From Natronococcus sp. CG52 (GTDB lineage Archaea > Halobacteriota > Halobacteria > Halobacteriales > Natrialbaceae), in contig NZ_CP099391.1 in assembly GCF_023913515.1 (NCBI RefSeq), positions 1,302,001 to 1,366,000 on the forward strand: a DNA stretch of 64,000 nt. Reading direction: 5' to 3'. Below are positions 14,740 to 61,009 of this stretch, piece after piece. The position numbers and the translations under genes were made by a program. The notes beneath the pieces were generated by a model. It did no database searches. It was given only the letters and a program-made list of their open reading frames with translations, and had not been told where the DNA came from. Positions within the stretch are counted from its first letter, which is position 1. Each line of letters opens with the position of its first letter.

Positions 14740-15380
14740 TCGCGTGGCTGCGTCTCAGGCGTCTCGGCGCCGGCCATCGGACCGCGCTCGGCGACCAGCA
14801 CGCCGACCTGGTCGTGGACGCGTTCGACGGCGGTCAGCGAGAACCCCGCGTTCGTGAAGGCGTCCGCGAGGGTTCCGACGGTCGCGGGGTCGTCGACGTC
14901 GGGCGAGTAGAACGGCTCGCTGGGGTCCGGATCGCCGAAGAACATCACGTCGCCGAGGATGAATTTACGCGGCTCGAGGTCCGCGATCACGTCGATCGCT
15001 TCGCGCTTTTGCTCGTCGGAGAGGTGGTGCATCGCGAAGTTCGAGGTCACCACATCGACCGGCCCGTCGTACTCGGGTTCGCGGAAGGTTCCGCGGTCGA
15101 ACTCGAGGTTATCGAGCCCTGCTTCCTCGGCCTTCGCTCTGGCCTCGTCCATCATCCCCTCGCTGATATCTCGGCCGACCACGCGCTCTGCGTCGGGCGC
15201 GAGGGCGAGCGCGATAGCGCCCGTTCCGGTCCCCAGGTCGAGCACGACGGCATCGCTCTCGGGGCTGGCGTGTTCGATCACCAGGTTCGCACAGGCGCGG
15301 TACTCCTCGGACTTCGAATCGTCGTACTCGCTGGCTTTCTCGTCGAAGCGGGCCGCGTGATCCTCAAGATTCCTCTTCAT
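14736..15380 (-). CDS. Class I SAM-dependent methyltransferase
   Basis: A 214-residue Rossmann-fold methyltransferase. Motif I is VVLDLGTGTGAIALAL (about residues 44-59), followed by an acidic residue at the end of strand beta-2 in VVGRDISEGMM, and motif IV region VDVVTSNFAMHHL. The substrate is unknown. Its position inside the rnp3-rnp2-psmA operon, conserved among haloarchaea as far as I recall, suggests an RNA- or translation-linked target, but this is inference. ATG 15380 is chosen over ATG 15407 because it reduces the overlap with rnp3 to 17 nt and begins the conserved part. Confidence 0.85.
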   Translation of the reverse strand: MKRNLEDHAARFDEKASEYDDSKSEEYRACANLVIEHASPESDAVVLDLGTGTGAIALALAPDAERVVGRDISEGMMDEARAKAEEAGLDNLEFDRGTFREPEYDGPVDVVTSNFAMHHLSDEQKREAIDVIADLEPRKFILGDVMFFGDPDPSEPFYSPDVDDPATVGTLADAFTNAGFSLTAVERVHDQVGVLVAERGPMAGAETPETQPRE

Positions 15381-16068
15381 ACCTGCCCCGTTCGACCCCC
15401 GGCTCAATGAACGACTCGGACTGGATCTGACGATTCCGCTCGATCAGTCGCCCCCACTCGGCGAGCCCGTCCTCGATAAAGTCGCTCGAGAACCCGATCT
15501 CCTCGCCGAGCGCCTTCAGCTCTCGGGGTGCGCGGAGTTCGAGGTGCGAGCGCGGATCCGCGCTCACGACGTAGGGTGCGTCGTAGTAGTCGACGATCTC
15601 ACCCAGCTTTTGCAGCGACTGGATGGTCCGCACGCGGCGGCCGCCGCTCGCCCGGAGCACGCCTGAAAGGTTGAACTCGAGTCGAACGCCGTTCTCGACG
15701 GCGGCTTTCGCGAGGACGTGGTTGACGTCGCCACTGCCGGCCATCGGCCCGGCGAGGACGTCGATCTTCGGCTGCTCGACGGCGAACCGGTTCAGGGCGT
15801 TCGAGCCGCCCTCGAGGGCGACGATGGTGTGGGAGGGGCGGTAGTTCCCGACGGAGCCGCTGGCCTGCTCGGGGTCGTCGGCTCGGATCTCGACGCCCTC
15901 GACGACGTCGATCCCGTACTCGTCGGCGATCCGGTCGGCGTCGTAGTCGGCCCGGTCGCTCGAGTGGTTGCGCACGACCACGCCCTCGAAGCCGTAGTCG
16001 GCCGCCGTTTTCGCGAGCCTGGCGACCGTGCTCTCTCCGTCGGGGTGGGCGTGGACGGCCTCGTACAT
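15364..16068 (-). CDS. rnp3: Ribonuclease P protein component 3 (Rpp30-type)
   Basis: A 234-residue TIM-barrel-like Rpp30 subunit of RNase P, first gene of the operon with the methyltransferase, rnp2 and psmA. Features are MYEAVHAHPDGESTVARLA, GFEGVVVRNHSS, the central VEIRADDPEQ and DVLAGPMAGSGDVNHVLAK, and the closing PYVVSADPRSHLELRAPRE (about residues 170-190). The length fits archaeal Rpp30 (about 210-240). Its start is 5' of a 370-bp spacer that holds the first triloop-hairpin element. Confidence 0.92.
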   Translation of the reverse strand: MYEAVHAHPDGESTVARLAKTAADYGFEGVVVRNHSSDRADYDADRIADEYGIDVVEGVEIRADDPEQASGSVGNYRPSHTIVALEGGSNALNRFAVEQPKIDVLAGPMAGSGDVNHVLAKAAVENGVRLEFNLSGVLRASGGRRVRTIQSLQKLGEIVDYYDAPYVVSADPRSHLELRAPRELKALGEEIGFSSDFIEDGLAEWGRLIERNRQIQSESFIEPGVERGRYEEES

Positions 16069-16224
16069 ACTCGAACCGTCTCACGGCTGCGACTTGGGCG
16101 TTGCGCCACGGACCAGCCCGACGATGGAAGCAACAAGTGCAACGAACGGCCAGGAACGCGACCGAACGAACGTGAGGGCGCGTGACTCGGGGAAAGGCAG
16201 GCCGTTCACCGAGATACACCGCGA

Positions 16225-16441
16225 GCGCCACAGGCGCGAGCGGGCCGACGACCGATGTGAGCGAGGACGAAGGACGAGCGAACGGAGGGAGGAGCGCTTT
16301 TGATCAACCTTTTACTGAGTGCCGACGCGCCGTGTGGCAGCTACGCTGCCGTCGGCGCGGAACAAACGTGGTTCGAGACGCCTTCGGCGTTTCGTCATCG
16401 CGAGAGAGCTCTGCTCTCTCGAACGACAGAGTAAAAGGTTG
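16225..16441. repeat. Triloop-hairpin element 1 with 12-bp terminal inverted repeat
   Basis: Within the 370-bp spacer between rnp3 and the tbsP stop are four perfect inverted repeats, each with a 3-base spacer: 16225-16237 (5 bp, ACA), 16336-16350 (6 bp, TAC), 16378-16390 (5 bp, TTC) and 16401-16421 (9 bp, TCT). The last three lie inside a perfect 12-bp inverted repeat, CAACCTTTTACT at 16305-16316 and AGTAAAAGGTTG at 16430-16441, whose right arm touches the tbsP stop codon. The 9-bp stem CGAGAGAGC recurs unchanged in element 2 at 60764. No protein-coding signal was seen here. Confidence 0.75.
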
Positions 16442-17260
16442 TTAGTTGAGAATGCTCTGTGCCACTGTCGCGAGCTGACCGTTGTCGGCCTCGTTGAGGC
16501 GATCGTCGCCGATCTTCAGGCGCAGGCGCGGACGGCCGACATCGATCGGGACCTTCTCGGTGTCGATCAGGCCCATATCCTCGAGTTTGGTCTTCGTTCG
16601 GCTGAACGTCGCCTTCGAGGCGATGCCGACGTCTTCGCCCCACTTGCTGATGTCGTAGAGCAGCGCCTCGTTTTTGGCGGCGACGAGCAGCGAGATGGTG
16701 ACTTCGTCGAGGCCGTCGCCGTCGCCGCGGGCGGTCTCGAGCGAGTTGAGGATCGCGGTGAAGTCCTCCTCGGCGTCGGGACTGATCTCCTCGGAGAGCG
16801 TCTCGCGGACGTTCGTGATCGGCGGCGTCCGGAGGTTGAACGTCGGGGCGTCCTCCCAGCGGGCCGCGTAGGCGTCGCGGGTGTCCTCGACGAAACTCTC
16901 GTCGTCGGTGATGAGTCCGCCGACGCGGTCGCCGGCGTGGACGACGGCGACGACGCGGTCTTCGGTGATCAGCAGCGAGTTCTCGGGAGCCTCCTCGAGG
17001 GTCCGAAGCGCGAGCGCGTCCTCGGTGATGAGGTCGGCGGCGTTCGAGGCGACGATGAAGTCGTCCATGACGTCCTTGAGCGTGCGTTCGTCGGCGAGCA
17101 TGTGTACCGACGGGAGCGTCCCGTCGAACGACGTCGCGACGGAGACGAACTCTTCGATGGCATCCCAGGAGGGATTGACCATGTAGACGTCCCCGGACGC
17201 ATCTTCGAGGATCGATTCGAGGATATCGTCAATTTGGTGGTTGAGTAAATTCGAGGTCAT
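16442..17260 (-). CDS. tbsP: Transcriptional regulator TbsP
   Basis: A 272-residue haloarchaeal regulator. Residues 1-150 form the conserved N-terminal domain (NHQIDDILESILEDASGDVY, LHMLADERTLKDVMDDFIVA-like segment), and residues 190-272 form a winged helix-turn-helix with LLVAAKNEALLYDISKWGED and ASKATFSRTKTKLEDMGLID. I recognise it as TbsP, reported in Haloferax to act with the sugar sensor TrmB on gluconeogenic gene expression. ATG 17260 matches the family start; the ATG 27 nt further upstream is less likely. AT-rich DNA before it (about 17280-17295) probably contains the promoter. Confidence 0.82.
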   Translation of the reverse strand: MTSNLLNHQIDDILESILEDASGDVYMVNPSWDAIEEFVSVATSFDGTLPSVHMLADERTLKDVMDDFIVASNAADLITEDALALRTLEEAPENSLLITEDRVVAVVHAGDRVGGLITDDESFVEDTRDAYAARWEDAPTFNLRTPPITNVRETLSEEISPDAEEDFTAILNSLETARGDGDGLDEVTISLLVAAKNEALLYDISKWGEDVGIASKATFSRTKTKLEDMGLIDTEKVPIDVGRPRLRLKIGDDRLNEADNGQLATVAQSILN

Positions 17261-17299
17261 GCCAGTACAGAAGTAAACGAGATACAATTACTTAATTTT

Positions 17300-17714: not shown

Positions 17715-19826
17715 TCAGGCGAACTGCGGCCAGAGTTCTTCGGACCAGTAGACGTCACCGTCGTAGATGACGGACGCCTCGGTGTCCCTGAGCAGCGACG
17801 ACAGCTCCGATCCGGTCACCGTAAAACTGGATTCGTTGCCACAGAGGTAGGCGTACTCCTGGTCTACGGTGTGCGGAACGTAGTACGATCCAGTTGCGCG
17901 CGTCGAGTAACAATCGAAGGTCAGCAGGTAGCGGTCGTCCTCGAGTTCCTCGAGCGTCGCCGTCGCCGGAAGACGGCTGTCGCTCTGGGTGAGCGAGTGG
18001 GTGCCGTCACCGACGACGGCGTAGTCCTTTCCCATCATGATGCGTCTGCGCGCGAGACGCAGCGCCCGTTCGATGCTGAATCCGTGGACGAGGAGTTTAG
18101 CGAACGTTGAACCGACCTTGACGGCGTGGTCGTTCAGGACCGTTCTGAACGTCACCGCGCCCGCGACGCTCCCCTTCTCGACGAGATTCATCCCCTGGTA
18201 GAAGGAGCCACAGGCGTTGAGAAAGAACGTCTGTGCGGAACACTGCTCGAGGCTCGCGGTCGAGAGGTAGCCGTCGGTACAGCGGAGTCCGTCGGTTTCG
18301 CAGTGGCCGATGTAGTGGACGAAGTCGTAGTCGTCCTCGAACACGCGGGCGAGTTCGGCCGTCGTGAGCCCCTCCTCGACGGTAACGTCCATCGTCACCT
18401 CCTTCGATCGACGGCGGTAGATCGCCGCGACGTCGTCGTGCTCGCCGGCCATATCGGGATCGTTCAGAACGACGCAGATCGAGGTCGACTCGCTCGAGCG
18501 CTCGAGGTACTCGAGGCGGTTGTGGTAGGCTGCGGGTGTGGATTTGAACACGTCGATCGGAACCCCGTCGGCGAGCCAGCCGTGGATCCGCGCGTCTCTG
18601 AGATCCGGCTTGACGATATCCACCGAGGCGACCCGTCCGGAGTGAGCCCTCGGCCCCGACGGTTCGTCGCCGCCGCGGTAGAAGTCGGCCAGGGAGCGTT
18701 CGATCAGTTCCCGCCCCTCGAGTTCGGACGTTCGCGGCGTGTAGAGCATGCTCATGCGGTCGAGCAGGAAGGGAAGCGTCTCGGCGAGTTCGTAGTCGGG
18801 ACTCACGTACGTCGCGAGGTGCCACTCGGGAAGGCGGTGTTCGACCGCCTCGTACGGCACGTCGAGGTACGCCGCGAGTCGATCGGCCGCGGACGTCTCG
18901 TAGAGGCTGTTGCCGTCCAGTCCTAGCACCTCGAGGAGGCTCGACTCCGCGAGCGACGTCCCGTAAGGGCCGGCGTTGCGAACCAAACAGTCCAGGAAGA
19001 AGGTCTTGCGGAGGAGCCGTTCGACGGACCGCTCGAGACCGGGCATGGACGTGAGCCGTGTTTCGATTCCGTGATCAGGAATTCGAAGTCGGGGTCGCGT
19101 GCGGCCGCCGCCGTCGGTTCCGCGGCTTCCGGGGTCTCCGTCGGTCGTTCGCACCGTCGCCTGGAGGTAGTACGCGAGCGGTGCAGTGACGTACAGCGAC
19201 TCGTAACAGGGCGGGACGACGAGTTCGATCCCGGTGTCGTGTCTCCTGGACCGGATTTCGTCGGGAATGTCGAGCTCGTCGCCGGACTCGATCAGCGGCG
19301 GGTGTCCGCGGAGCGTCGGGTAGGTGCGATCCGGTCGGTCGGTCTTGTGCGAGGACGCGAGGTGGGTGATCGCGGTCGCGACGTCGGCCGGCGAGTCGGG
19401 GACGGTTATCGTCCCCGCGGGAAACTCGTGGCGGCTTCTGAAGCCGACGATGACGCGCGTTCGTTCCGGAAACGAGACCACGATCGACTCGAAGTCGTCG
19501 GTCTTCTCGATGGTGGCCGGCCCGGAAAAGCGAAGGTAGCTCTTGATCTCCGTGTCGACGTCGACGACGTACTCGCTGGGCGGCAGGGAGAGGGGGTCAC
19601 CGCTGTGATCGAGTTCGTATCGGGTGCTCGAGCCGAGCGCGAAGGCGTAGACGATCGCGTGCGGGAACCGGAGTTCGTCCGTCGTGACGGTGACCGTCTC
19701 GTCGACCGGACGGGAAATCTCTCGGCCGGATCCGGAGACCGCGAGATTAGATCCCTCTACCGAGAGTTCCGCGTTGTCCGTGTCCATGACGTGGAGCGTA
19801 TCCCCCGCTGACGCCCACTCTATCAT
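17715..19826 (-). CDS. CHAT/caspase-like protease domain protein
   Basis: A 703-residue protein. The C-terminal part looks like a CHAT (clan CD cysteine protease) domain: the segment FVHYIGHCETDGL carries the candidate catalytic His508, and FFLNACGSFYQG carries the candidate Cys539, followed by the typical VAGAVTFRTVLND and ALRLARRRIMMGKD helices. The first 400 residues are beta-rich and of unknown family. No signal peptide or membrane segment is seen, so it is probably cytosolic. ATG 19826 is chosen because a TATA-like box (19848-19857) lies 27 nt upstream; the longer frame would start at 19976 inside glyA's promoter region. Substrate and role are unknown. Confidence 0.72.
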   Translation of the reverse strand: MIEWASAGDTLHVMDTDNAELSVEGSNLAVSGSGREISRPVDETVTVTTDELRFPHAIVYAFALGSSTRYELDHSGDPLSLPPSEYVVDVDTEIKSYLRFSGPATIEKTDDFESIVVSFPERTRVIVGFRSRHEFPAGTITVPDSPADVATAITHLASSHKTDRPDRTYPTLRGHPPLIESGDELDIPDEIRSRRHDTGIELVVPPCYESLYVTAPLAYYLQATVRTTDGDPGSRGTDGGGRTRPRLRIPDHGIETRLTSMPGLERSVERLLRKTFFLDCLVRNAGPYGTSLAESSLLEVLGLDGNSLYETSAADRLAAYLDVPYEAVEHRLPEWHLATYVSPDYELAETLPFLLDRMSMLYTPRTSELEGRELIERSLADFYRGGDEPSGPRAHSGRVASVDIVKPDLRDARIHGWLADGVPIDVFKSTPAAYHNRLEYLERSSESTSICVVLNDPDMAGEHDDVAAIYRRRSKEVTMDVTVEEGLTTAELARVFEDDYDFVHYIGHCETDGLRCTDGYLSTASLEQCSAQTFFLNACGSFYQGMNLVEKGSVAGAVTFRTVLNDHAVKVGSTFAKLLVHGFSIERALRLARRRIMMGKDYAVVGDGTHSLTQSDSRLPATATLEELEDDRYLLTFDCYSTRATGSYYVPHTVDQEYAYLCGNESSFTVTGSELSSLLRDTEASVIYDGDVYWSEELWPQFA

Positions 19827-19847
19827 TCGGTACGCTGAATGTTCGCC

Positions 19848-19857
19848 CGATAAGTTA
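19848..19857 (-). promoter_or_regulatory. TATA-like box for the CHAT gene
   Basis: Minus-strand aacttatcgg is centred 27 nt before the ATG at 19826. A second box for glyA faces the other way about 95 bp further right, so the two genes share a divergent promoter region. Confidence 0.5.
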
Positions 19858-19942
19858 GGTGTATCGGACGGGACCTCTTCGTGACGGCCGACGGGCCGAA
19901 CGCGACCGCGCGTATACTGGCACGACTCGCCGAAGACGGGTA

Positions 19943-19952
19943 CACTTATACG
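19943..19952 (+). promoter_or_regulatory. TATA box for glyA
   Basis: The sequence cacttatacg is centred 28 nt before the ATG at 19975, matching the arrangement and wording of the arfA box. Confidence 0.6.
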
Positions 19953-19974
19953 GTCACCAGACCGCACACCAGAC

Positions 19975-21222
19975 ATGGAACACGAGCACGTCCGGGAGGT
20001 CGATCCCGCCGTCGCCGACGCTCTCGAAGCGGAGGTCGATCGCCAGCGAGACTCGCTCCAGATGATCGCCAGCGAGAACCACGTCAGTCGCGCCGTCGTC
20101 GACGCTCAGGGGAGCATTCTGACGAACAAGTACGCCGAGGGCTACCCCGGTTCCCGGTATTACGGCGGCTGCGAGCACGCCGACGAGGTCGAACAGCTCG
20201 CGATCGACCGCGCGAAGGAGCTGTTCGGCGCCGAGCACGTCAACGTCCAGCCCCACTCCGGCACGCAGGCCAACCAGGCGGTTTACTTCGCGATGCTCGA
20301 GCCCGGCGACAAGATTCTCTCGCTGGATCTGACCCACGGCGGGCACCTGAGCCACGGCCACCCCGCGAACTTCGTGGGACAGCTGTACGAGGTCGAACAG
20401 TACGAGGTCGACACCGAGACGGGCTACCTCGACTACGAAGGCCTCGCCGAGCACGCCGACGAGTTCGAACCCGATATCATCGTCTCGGGCTACTCGGCGT
20501 ACCCGCGCGAGGTCGAATGGGGCCGAATCCAGGAGGCCGCCGACGACGTCGGCGCGCTCCACCTCGCCGACATCGCTCACATCACGGGGCTCGTCGCCGC
20601 CGGCACTCACGAGTCGCCGGTCGGCGTCGCCGACTTCGTCACCGGCAGCACTCACAAGACCATCCGCTCCGGACGCGGCGGCATCGTCATGTGCGACGAG
20701 GAGCACGCCGACGACATCGACGCGGCGGTCTTCCCCGGCGGTCAGGGCGGTCCCCTCATGCACAACGTCGCCGGCAAGGCCGTCGGCTTCGAGGAAGCGC
20801 TCGAGCCCGAGTTCGAAGACTACGCCGAGCAGACGGTCGCGAACGCGAAAGCGCTCGGGGACCAGCTCTCCGAGCACGGTTTCTCGCTGGTCTCGGGGGG
20901 GACCGACAACCACCTCGTGCTCGTCGACCTCCGCGAGAGCCACCCCGACACCAGCGGCGGTGACGCCGAGGAGGCCCTCGAGGAGGCCGACATCGTCCTC
21001 AACGGGAACACCGTTCCCGGCGAAACCCGCTCCGCGTTCGATCCGTCGGGGATCCGCGCCGGCACGCCCGCGCTGACGACTCGCGGCTTCGACGAAGACG
21101 ACTGTCGAACCGTCGCCGACCTGATCGCCCGAGTCGTCGACGCGCCCGACGACGAGGACGTCATCGCCGAGGCTCGCGACGAGGTCTCGGCGCTCTGTGA
21201 GGAGAATCCGCTCTACGAGTAG
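19975..21222 (+). CDS. glyA: Serine hydroxymethyltransferase
   Basis: A 415-residue PLP enzyme that converts serine and a tetrahydrofolate-type carrier to glycine and the methylene carrier. Family landmarks are LQMIASENHVSRAV, NKYAEGYPGSRYYGGCEHAD (about residues 43-62), NVQPHSGTQAN, LADIAHITGLVA and the PLP lysine in VTGSTHKTIRSGRGG (Lys about 226). The length matches the family. folD follows 790 bp downstream on the same strand and thyA-folA lie at 41-42.7 kb, so this window holds much of the one-carbon set. Confidence 0.96.
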   Translation: MEHEHVREVDPAVADALEAEVDRQRDSLQMIASENHVSRAVVDAQGSILTNKYAEGYPGSRYYGGCEHADEVEQLAIDRAKELFGAEHVNVQPHSGTQANQAVYFAMLEPGDKILSLDLTHGGHLSHGHPANFVGQLYEVEQYEVDTETGYLDYEGLAEHADEFEPDIIVSGYSAYPREVEWGRIQEAADDVGALHLADIAHITGLVAAGTHESPVGVADFVTGSTHKTIRSGRGGIVMCDEEHADDIDAAVFPGGQGGPLMHNVAGKAVGFEEALEPEFEDYAEQTVANAKALGDQLSEHGFSLVSGGTDNHLVLVDLRESHPDTSGGDAEEALEEADIVLNGNTVPGETRSAFDPSGIRAGTPALTTRGFDEDDCRTVADLIARVVDAPDDEDVIAEARDEVSALCEENPLYE

Positions 21223-45373: not shown

Positions 45374-47611
45374 ATGAGCCACCCGACGGAGCGCAACCGG
45401 CTCGAGGAGGAGCAAAGCCCCTACCTGCGCCAGCACGCGGACAACCCCGTCAACTGGCAGCCCTGGGACGAACAGGCGCTCGAGACCGCCCGCGAGCACG
45501 ACGTCCCGATCTTCCTCTCGATCGGCTACTCGGCGTGTCACTGGTGTCACGTCATGGCGGACGAGAGCTTCGCCGACGAGGAGGTCGCCGAGGTGCTCAA
45601 CGAGCACTTCGTTCCGATCAAGGTCGACCGCGAGGAGCGTCCGGACGTCGACAGCATCTACATGACCGTCTGTCAGCTGGTCAGCGGCGGCGGCGGCTGG
45701 CCGCTCTCGGCGTGGCTCACGCCCGAGGGCAAGCCGTTCTACGTCGGCACTTACTTCCCCAAGGAGCCGAAGCGCGGACAGCCGGGCTTTCTCGACGTTC
45801 TCGAGAATCTCCGCGGCTCCTGGGAGACGGACCGCGACGAGATCGAGAACCGGGCCGACCAGTGGACCGAGGCGGCGGCGGACCGACTCGAGGAGACGTC
45901 CGACGCGGTCGGCGCCGCGGAGCCGCCCTCGAGCGACGTCCTCGAGCGCGCCGCGGACGCGGCGCTCCGGAGTGCGGACCGCCAGTACGGCGGCTTCGGC
46001 TCCGGCGGACCGAAGTTCCCCCAGCCGTCGCGGCTGCGCGTGCTCGCCCGGGCGTACGACCGCACCGGCCGGGAGGAGTACCTCGAGGTGCTCGAAGGCT
46101 CGCTCACCGCGATGATCGAGGGCGGGCTCTACGACCACGTCGGCGGCGGCTTCCACCGGTACTGCGTCGATCGGGACTGGACGGTGCCCCACTTCGAGAA
46201 GATGCTGTACGACAACGCCGAGATTCCGCGGGTCCTGCTCGCCGGCTACCAGCTCACGGGTGAGGATCGCTACGTCGAGGTCGTCGCGGAGACCCTCGAG
46301 TTCGTCTCCCGGGAGCTCACCCACGACGAGGGCGGCTTCTTCAGCACGCTCGACGCCCAGAGCGAAGATCCCGAGACCGGCGAGCGCGAGGAGGGCGCGT
46401 TCTACGTCTGGACGCCCGCCGAGGTTCGGGACGTCCTCGATGACGAAACCGACGCCGAACTCTTCTGCGAGCGCTTCGACATCACGGAGTCGGGTAACTT
46501 CGAGGGGCAGAACCAGCCGAACGTCGACGCGTCGATCCCCGAACTCGCCGAGCGGTTCGACCTCGAGGAGAACGAGGTCGAAGAGCGGCTCGAGTCCGCC
46601 CGCGAGCAGCTGTTCGAGGCCCGCGAGGAGCGGCCGCGACCCAACCGCGACGAGAAGGTGCTCGCGAGCTGGAACGGGATGATGATCGCGACCTGCGCCG
46701 AGGCCGCGCTCGTGCTGGGCGAGGACGAGTTCGCCAGTATGGCGGTCGACGCCCTCGAGTTCGTTCGAGATCGGCTCTGGGACGCGGACGAGAAGCGGCT
46801 GTCGCGGCGCTACAAGGACGGGGACGTGGCCGTCCAGGGCTACCTCGAGGACTACGCCTTCCTCGCACGCGGAGCCCTCGGTTGCTACGAGGCGACGGGC
46901 GACGTCGACCACCTCGCCTTTGCCCTCGAACTCGCCCGCGTCATCGAAGCCGAGTTCTGGGACGACGAGCGAGAGACGATCTACTTCACGCCCGAGAGCG
47001 GCGAGTCGCTCGTCACGCGGCCCCAGGAGTTGACCGACCAGTCGACGCCCTCCGCCGCGGGCGTCGCGGTCGAGACCCTTCTCGCGCTCGACGGCTTCGC
47101 CAGCGAGGCGCAAAGCGCCTCGAGCCGTGCGAGCGGGCAAAGCCCGCGAGCAGAAGCCGTCGACGACGAGGAGTTCGAGGAGATCGCCGCGTCCGTCCTG
47201 CAGACCCACGCCGGTCGCCTCGAGTCGAACGCGCTCCAGCACGCGACGCTCTGTCTCGCCGCGGATCGCCTCGATGCGGGCGCGCTCGAGGTGACGGTCG
47301 CCGCCGACGAACTGTCCGCGGAGTGGCGAGACCGCTTCGCCTCGCGGTACCTGCCGGACCGGCAGTTCGCGCTCCGGCCGCCGACCGAGGACGGCCTCGA
47401 GGACTGGCTCGACCGACTGGGGCTCGAGGGCGCGCCCGCCGTCTGGGCCGGTCGCGAGGCCCGCGACGGGGAGCCGACGCTGTACGTCTGCCGGAACCGA
47501 ACCTGCTCGCCGCCGACCCACGACGTCGACGAGGCGATCGCGTGGCTCGACGGTTCGAGTACTGGTGGGGAAAACGCAGACGCCGAAATCGAAGACGACG
47601 TGCCGTTCTAG
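45374..47611 (+). CDS. Thioredoxin-domain protein, DUF255/YyaL type
   Basis: A 745-residue protein of the spermatogenesis-associated protein 20/YyaL family. The N-terminal thioredoxin-like domain (about residues 5-170) has ERNRLEEEQSPYLRQHADNP, the CxxC in YSACHWCHVMADESF and EVNEHFVPIKVDREERPDVD-like text. The rest is an alpha/alpha-toroid resembling glucosaminidase-type folds (GGGFHRYCVDRDWTVPHFEK, LASWNGMMI). Its substrate is unknown. A roughly 25-residue low-complexity insert (about 577-600) is encoded by DNA with two triloop hairpins. A TATA-like word (cttttac, 45345-45351) lies 28 nt before the ATG. Confidence 0.88.
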   Translation: MSHPTERNRLEEEQSPYLRQHADNPVNWQPWDEQALETAREHDVPIFLSIGYSACHWCHVMADESFADEEVAEVLNEHFVPIKVDREERPDVDSIYMTVCQLVSGGGGWPLSAWLTPEGKPFYVGTYFPKEPKRGQPGFLDVLENLRGSWETDRDEIENRADQWTEAAADRLEETSDAVGAAEPPSSDVLERAADAALRSADRQYGGFGSGGPKFPQPSRLRVLARAYDRTGREEYLEVLEGSLTAMIEGGLYDHVGGGFHRYCVDRDWTVPHFEKMLYDNAEIPRVLLAGYQLTGEDRYVEVVAETLEFVSRELTHDEGGFFSTLDAQSEDPETGEREEGAFYVWTPAEVRDVLDDETDAELFCERFDITESGNFEGQNQPNVDASIPELAERFDLEENEVEERLESAREQLFEAREERPRPNRDEKVLASWNGMMIATCAEAALVLGEDEFASMAVDALEFVRDRLWDADEKRLSRRYKDGDVAVQGYLEDYAFLARGALGCYEATGDVDHLAFALELARVIEAEFWDDERETIYFTPESGESLVTRPQELTDQSTPSAAGVAVETLLALDGFASEAQSASSRASGQSPRAEAVDDEEFEEIAASVLQTHAGRLESNALQHATLCLAADRLDAGALEVTVAADELSAEWRDRFASRYLPDRQFALRPPTEDGLEDWLDRLGLEGAPAVWAGREARDGEPTLYVCRNRTCSPPTHDVDEAIAWLDGSSTGGENADAEIEDDVPF
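47105..47147 (+). repeat. Two triloop hairpins inside the DUF255 coding sequence
   Basis: GAGGCGC (47105-47111) and GCGCCTC (47115-47121) flank AAA; GCGGGC (47133-47138) and GCCCGC (47142-47147) flank AAA. The encoded stretch (SASSRASGQSPRAEAV region) is a low-complexity insert in the family alignment as I recall it. Confidence 0.7.
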
Positions 47612-60517: not shown

Positions 60518-61009
60518 CGACGCAGTTTCTTTCAGTTTTCGCCGTTCGTTCGTCGACCACTGCTCGCTCCGCAGCGCGACCGCCGGCGGGTTTCTCCCGA
60601 CTGGATAAGCCACGACGGGCGGTAATGAAAGGGGCGTTCCGTCTCGAGGAACCCGGACGAAGTCCTCGCGAACGGAGTGAGAGAGGGGGCAGCGAGACGG
60701 TACGCGTCTCGCAGAGCAAACACCGCAGGGAGGGAGTCCTGCGACCGACCGAGGCGCGTGGTTCGAGAGAGCTTGGCTCTCTCGTCACTGAGCGGAGCGA
60801 AGCTCCGCGAGGTCGTCGGGCGGCACTGCCGCCCGACTGCAAGCGATTCCTTCGGAATCGTCCAGTCCAAAAGAGCGCGAAGCGCTCTTTTGAAGATCAC
60901 GAAAATCGAAGATTTTCGAACGACAGCGAATCCCGGGAGTCGAGACGGAACGGGGCTTTCGACACGTTCGTAGCGGAACGGTGCGGGGCCCGTTCGACGA
61001 CGAAACCGA
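60518..61009. other. Convergent spacer holding triloop-hairpin element 2
   Basis: About 490 bp between the stop of the FKBP gene and the stop of the RAD55-like gene. It contains no supported coding frame. Its central 155 bp (60764-60918) are the hairpin array; weaker inverted repeats without the 3-base spacer occur at about 60693-60713 and 60724-60742. The flanks on both sides are ordinary GC-rich sequence. Confidence 0.55.
60764..60918. repeat. Triloop-hairpin element 2
   Basis: Six perfect inverted repeats follow each other in 155 bp, all with a 3-base spacer: 60764-60784 (9 bp, TTG), 60792-60808 (7 bp, GAA), 60815-60836 (10 bp, ACT), 60844-60860 (7 bp, TTC), 60868-60892 (11 bp, GAA) and 60900-60918 (8 bp, GAA). 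The first stem, CGAGAGAGC, is identical to the last stem of element 1 at 16401-16421. Flanking words CGTGGTTCGAGA and TCGAACGACAG also occur in element 1. Confidence 0.82.

Follow-up and report, generated by a model that had tools for sequence, protein, structure and literature searches.

A dispersed haloarchaeal gene-end element with exchangeable triloop hairpins, represented at the tbsP site of Natronococcus sp. CG52

The spacer behind tbsP in Natronococcus sp. CG52 holds a member of a family of gene-end elements dispersed in haloarchaeal genomes. This copy is ∼294 nt long, starts directly after the tbsP stop codon (16442-16444) and carries perfect hairpins with 3-nt loops within a conserved framework. 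Judging from sequence comparisons, we consider it fairly probable that the family represents a hairpin element with a putative role at gene ends, probably 3'-end formation or termination, and that it is kept by DNA-templated exchange. Positions refer to the window, i.e., the whole stretch of 64,000 nucleotides that was analyzed, in which the following features were located.

16442..17287, minus strand: tbsP, transcriptional regulator, upstream gene (NCBIfam NF047393, 415 bits, E 1.5e-124)
16148..16441, minus strand: whole element (tbsP copy), with a framework common to other copies here and in other genomes; laid out as an outer stem with inner hairpins, a pyrimidine-rich spacer, a conserved block and a terminal hairpin block
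16430..16441, minus strand: outer-stem 5' arm CAACCTTTTACT, perfect complement of 16305-16316, adjoining the tbsP stop codon
16401..16421, no strand assigned: triloop hairpin CGAGAGAGC-TCT-GCTCTCTCG, from a perfect repeat scan of the spacer
16374..16394, no strand assigned: second triloop hairpin of the same module, 9 bp with one A·C mismatch, around the perfect core ACGCC-TTC-GGCGT at 16378
16326..16359, no strand assigned: nested hairpin, a 7-bp outer stem around GGCAGC-TAC-GCTGCC (16336), from repeat scan and fold
16305..16316, minus strand: outer-stem 3' arm AGTAAAAGGTTG, then ATCAAAAG; pairs and covaries with the 5' arm
16280..16304, minus strand: framework ATCAAAAGCGCTCCTCCCTCCGTTC, pyrimidine-rich spacer, near-invariant columns in 27 copies
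16236..16251, minus strand: framework block TCGTCGGCCCGCTCGC, near-invariant in 27 copies
16225..16237, no strand assigned: fourth triloop hairpin GCGCC-ACA-GGCGC, in a variable slot after the TCGTCGGCCCGCTCGC block, from the repeat scan
16148..16206, minus strand: terminal block GCCTGCCTTTCCCCGAGTCACGCGCCC...GTTCCTGGCC with a longer-loop hairpin; the same block ends most copies
15364..16068, minus strand: RNase P protein component 3 gene, downstream (NCBIfam NF046111, E 8e-43, below the model's curated cut-off)
60764..60918, no strand assigned: second cluster of nested triloop modules of the same kind, intergenic, without the outer framework

A 753-aa protein with no NCBIfam match is encoded at 17715-19976 on the minus strand; the motifs HYIGHCETDG and NACGSF in it point to a CHAT-like protease.

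The initial annotation had described four perfect inverted repeats with 3-nt spacers in the spacer by tbsP, three of them enclosed by a perfect 12-bp inverted repeat whose right arm touches the tbsP stop. All are present as described, and in forward-strand reading the 12-bp repeat is CAACCTTTTACT at 16305-16316 and AGTAAAAGGTTG at 16430-16441. Its claim that the cluster is not a product of chance held up as well, since 2000 Markov shuffles averaged 0.29 triloop repeats of at least 5 bp and none reached four. The location at the tbsP 3' end and the capacity to fold as one branched structure were likewise borne out: folded as RNA, the stretch is stabler than its dinucleotide shuffles (z −3.4; whole element, z −3.3), and the other strand folded as DNA gave z −4.0 against shuffles. 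For the attendant idea of a transcript structure, the 3'-end position and the branched fold speak in its favor, but selection on the sense RNA is weakened by the 13:2 ratio of A·C to G·U mismatches described below. The extent first given, 16225-16441, does belong to the element but is too short, since other copies extend it to about 16148. What that reading of otherwise correct repeats had missed is the dispersed, framework-conserved family of ∼294-nt elements with exchangeable hairpins.

This genome has six occurrences of the core AAAAGGTTGATCAAAAG, of which a single one lies on the opposite strand to the remaining five; blastn with the element finds 46 places, full or partial, and a framework profile search yields about 16 copies. 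Aligned copies share a 5' half that reads CxAxxTTTTxC, CTGC, [hairpins], (C/A)CTCGG, xAAAAxxTxGATCAAAAGCACTCCTCCTTCCGTTC. This is followed, after CCGTTC, by a 3' half composed of [hairpin], CACATCAGTCGTCGGCCCGCTC, [hairpin], a variable stretch, GCCTGCCCTTCCCC and the terminal hairpin block, for a total of about 200-300 nt. An alignment of 27 copies has 37 invariant columns in the framework, whereas the hairpin between them cannot be aligned. Other copies hold different hairpins in the slot after the TCGTCGGCCCGCTCGC block. The hairpin CGAGAGAGC-NNN-GCTCTCTCG belongs to an inserted module of two hairpins (TCGTTCG...CGAACCAC), of which the tbsP copy in the window holds one (16374-16394 and 16401-16421). 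The same module is found in copies L141, L157, L186 and L189, with or without further nested hairpins, and the nested hairpin type of 16326..16359 recurs in L005, L152, L155 and L169. Longer copies (e.g., L157, L180, L186, L189 and L206) contain additional two-hairpin modules, nested and in either orientation, whose insertion points are fixed joints.

The second cluster contains the hairpins GTTCG-AGAGAGC-NNN-GCTCTCT..., CTGAGCGGAGC-GAA-GCTCCGCGAGGTC and CAAAAGAGCGC-GAA-GCGCTCTTTTG. Separately, the perfect AAA-triloop hairpins GAGGCGC-AAA-GCGCCTC and GCGGGC-AAA-GCCCGC lie in frame at 47063-47160 in a 745-aa CDS (45374-47611, plus strand), as if hairpin modules had been inserted into the gene.

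The family is far from being absent in relatives, a possibility raised at the outset. From the haloarchaeal order, 293 genomes representing 87 genera were scanned with the framework profile, and copies turned up in 160 of them, belonging to 49 genera; the per-genome copy counts are lower bounds since few candidates were scored per genome. A phylum-wide sample gave matches inside this order only and none outside. An exact-core scan of genome contigs also returned chance matches in unrelated AT-rich bacteria, and a paired 5' arm was required as a filter. On haloarchaeal megaplasmids we saw only short partial matches, and spread by plasmids was rejected. With the Rfam covariance models, the element had no match, either at the gathering score or when E values as high as 1 were admitted, and the open-licence papers, which are the literature covered, yielded no named haloarchaeal element of this design, in agreement with the initial annotation.

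Placement was assessed on 138 distinct copies with a recognizable outer stem, a set whose sites are not all independent and in which tbsP orthologues are over-represented, having been gathered deliberately. Of these, 114 start 0-6 nt past a stop codon whose coding frame lies on the same strand, the gap being 0 nt in 42 copies, 3 nt in 37, 4 nt in 13 and 2 nt in 11. Further host genes recognized from sequence include engB, pan, tfs and gyrB. Some copies follow RNA genes: L225 and L226 come after an apparent SRP RNA, and L023 after an apparent tRNA 3' end for which ARAGORN gave no tRNA call. About 12 copies are antisense between codirectional genes. The stop codons before the 114 copies are TAA (74), TAG (33) and TGA (7), so that TAA or TAG accounts for 107; about half of the other genes here use TGA. 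This excess may reflect expression level or a stop codon that travels with the element. Arm class is tied to stop type, with TAG plus 3 nt for the class bearing a C·C mismatch (below) and TAA plus 0 nt for the others, and from this linkage it looks as if the stop codon were part of the exchanged unit. The arms present a run of four, sometimes five, T's on both strands. Thus copies have the placement of a terminator, i.e., directly after genes, in sense orientation and with a T-run, and this placement suggests that the element may serve the cell in gene-end formation or protection.

The outer arms covary. Among 30 distinct arm pairs, position 2 is G-C or A-T, position 4 is A-T, C-G or G-C, and position 10 is G-C, A-T, T-A or C-G. 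At the variable positions, 130 of 150 cells are Watson-Crick, compared with 79 on average, and 100 at most, when the pairing is shuffled. One arm class is mismatched at position 5 (C·C), and GATG always comes next, whereas GATC (or GATT) follows the 3' arm in the matched classes; subfamily inheritance may account for the linkage between C·C and GATG. The base of the 3' arm was also seen to be complementary to the base after GAT in three of four classes.

The constant 3-base spacer noted initially is a real signature of the hairpins. In the 138 copies, distinct hairpins of at least 7 bp comprise 144 with 3-nt loops, 22 with 4-nt loops and 5-11 with longer ones, and an equal amount of shuffled sequence gives 12.5 with 3-nt loops. 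A C-G pair closes 136 of the 144 triloops, and in 85 the loop reads GNA on one of the two strands (35 GNA, 50 TNC). GNA-type loops such as that of GCGAAGC form extraordinarily stable DNA mini-hairpins (PMC4686876 and PMC10527192, both of which use the GCGAAGC hairpin). Read on the sense strand, 21 of 1307 stem pairs are mismatched, comprising 2 G·U, 13 A·C and 6 other, a low wobble rate that is partly built in because Watson-Crick seeds were used to find the hairpins; the ratio of G·U to A·C alone is unbiased by this procedure. By that ratio, G·U is the rarer of the two on the sense strand (binomial p 0.007). As a rough yardstick, tRNAs folded by energy contain 11.6% G·U. An A·C on the sense strand is a G·T on the opposite strand, and the bias could stem from strand-biased mutation or from folding of the other strand. 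Since the stems are nearly all Watson-Crick and G·U is rarer than A·C, their upkeep looks to be at the DNA level and not by selection on the sense RNA.

Hairpins and arms turn over at individual sites and are shared between sites. Three congeners whose tbsP genes are 94-96% identical have different arms and different inner hairpins at the tbsP site, a site at which the element is retained in many genera. At the engB site, within the genus, one class is found in this genome and in G093, another in G064, and none or a relic in others; the stem GGCGTGC/GCACGCC is common to G064 and G093, with the loops TTT and AAA, which are inversions of each other. The gyrB-gyrA spacer contains the element here and in G028, while it is short and empty in the other sampled relatives, including two sisters. 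The stem cassettes GGGCGCGGC, GTGCGGTCGC and GGGTGCGCC each appear at 6-8 unrelated gene sites with varying loops. Arm class is shared by 50% of within-genome pairs vs 29% of same-gene pairs across genomes, the latter equal to unrelated pairs, and 2000 label permutations gave a maximum of 88 same-class within-genome pairs vs 103 observed. This likeness of copies within a genome is concerted evolution, through exchange between sites or through recent amplification.

A mechanism can be proposed from these observations. The framework, consisting of the outer stem with its T4/A4 tracts, the pyrimidine-rich spacer, the TCGTCGGCCCGCTCGC block and the CCTGCCC-TCCCC block, begins at the stop codon and has slots that perfect hairpins with 3-nt loops fill. 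Hairpin cassettes would be exchanged among copies via the shared framework, by ectopic recombination or gene conversion, while DNA synthesis on single strands, by fold-back or template switching, would keep the arms perfect and flip the loops; the case for both steps is moderately strong. In fold-back synthesis, 3 nt may be favored as the most compact stable loop. The retained use would be 3'-end formation and/or protection of the mRNA 3' end, to which the data point less strongly. A two-way terminator is proposed because of the T-runs in the arms on both strands, yet the antisense copies and the gyrB-gyrA spacer that is empty in sister species are awkward for an obligate terminator. Going further, the element might be a self-repairing, fast-diversifying structural marker of gene ends across haloarchaea, anchored at stop codons, with interchangeable perfect hairpins written and homogenized at the DNA level by fold-back copying and ectopic gene conversion, and as such neither a transposon nor an ordinary terminator hairpin; we put this forward tentatively, as a possibility. 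With many replicate copies, the family provides a natural experiment in how perfectly paired DNA hairpins form and how they remain so as their sequence changes. It also bears on how haloarchaea define transcript 3' ends, for which, to our knowledge, only T-runs and scattered hairpins are known, and as a compact repeat family it can be used to trace gene conversion in polyploid archaea.

Other explanations were weighed against this gene-end element maintained by DNA-templated exchange. Haloarchaeal spacers are rich in CTCGCTCG-type sequence and short two-copy matches are common, so GC-rich or low-complexity spacer DNA might throw up such patterns by chance. The shuffles, which never reached four triloop repeats in 2000 trials, and the family distribution refute a chance origin, and with a framework conserved over 49 genera and covarying outer arms we regard it as extremely improbable. 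A non-autonomous mobile element of MITE, PATE or REP type is an unlikely but more substantial candidate. Here the hairpins would be transposase recognition structures, and the post-stop location would result from a target there or from loss of other insertions. The dispersed copies, the presence or absence at gyrB and engB between congeners, the nested modules inserted in either orientation and the precedent of transposase-free palindromic elements in Haloquadratum (PMC3119063) are all in keeping with mobility. However, a PF01797 search found no Y1 transposase in the genome while its controls, including Haloferax volcanii, were positive, and on this basis mobilization by IS200/IS605 or RAYT enzymes was rejected. 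Nor was a fixed target sequence seen before the copies, which differ in stop type and gap and in some cases follow RNA genes, and the strong orientation bias and retention at the tbsP site in many genera are unlike random insertion.

Alternatively, the hairpins and compensatory changes could be held by selection on the sense transcript as a structured 3'-UTR RNA (a terminator hairpin, an exonuclease block or a protein-binding RNA), with DNA-level exchange being incidental. The position and orientation at gene 3' ends, the stable branched fold and the covarying arms would all be expected of such an RNA. The excess of A·C over G·U on the sense strand is the opposite of what sense-RNA selection predicts and disfavors it as the sole cause, and whole stems are replaced instead of being compensated stepwise. 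We therefore hold this account to be improbable. Because a sense-RNA constraint alone should tolerate G·U and only 2 of 1307 pairs are of this kind, upkeep at the DNA level is the simplest account of the stems.

Several known systems resemble the element in part. The SMR, MITEs and PATEs of Haloquadratum walsbyi are mobile elements with inverted ends or IS605-related palindromes (PMC3119063). Like them, the present element is short, non-coding, dispersed and palindrome-bearing, with elements nested in one another; unlike them, it is anchored at stop codons, lies mostly in one orientation, has interchangeable stems in fixed slots and is accompanied by no Y1 transposase. PATEs lack terminal inverted repeats, and here a covarying inverted repeat stands at the 5' end without spanning both element ends. 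SMR are characterized by inverted terminal repeats unrelated to transposons and by strain-specific insertions; here presence and absence was seen between species, at gyrB and engB, and the inverted repeat is not terminal on the far side. Bacterial REP/BIME sequences have a conserved stem sequence, GTAG/CGTC tags and RAYT transposases (PMC3733652, PMC2817692), and the text of the REP survey does not mention haloarchaea (PMC3733652). Both groups form extragenic hairpins, often paired with short linkers, and dispersed palindromes of 20-40 bp are found here too. In contrast to REPs, stems vary freely, differing between copies at the same slot, the loops measure 3 nt, and a RAYT-type (Y1) protein was not found. 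In Haloferax volcanii, T-stretches act as terminators, hairpins precede a subset of 3' ends, and some of the hairpins can stop transcription in vivo (PMC7237163). The element shares the location at gene 3' ends and the T-runs with hairpins, but differs from such generic signals in being a homologous ∼294-nt repeat with exchangeable hairpins. Template switching creates and maintains hairpin stems and inverts loops, as described for rRNA and microRNA genes (PMC8794818). Its predictions of perfect stems, instantaneous multi-base changes and loop inversions match what we see, in this instance in a dispersed archaeal element at gene ends. Taken together, the lack of a Y1 transposase, the unconserved stems, the anchoring at stop codons and the lack of an Rfam match mark a distinct variant among dispersed palindromic repeats, and it is there that we place the element, with a putative gene-end function.
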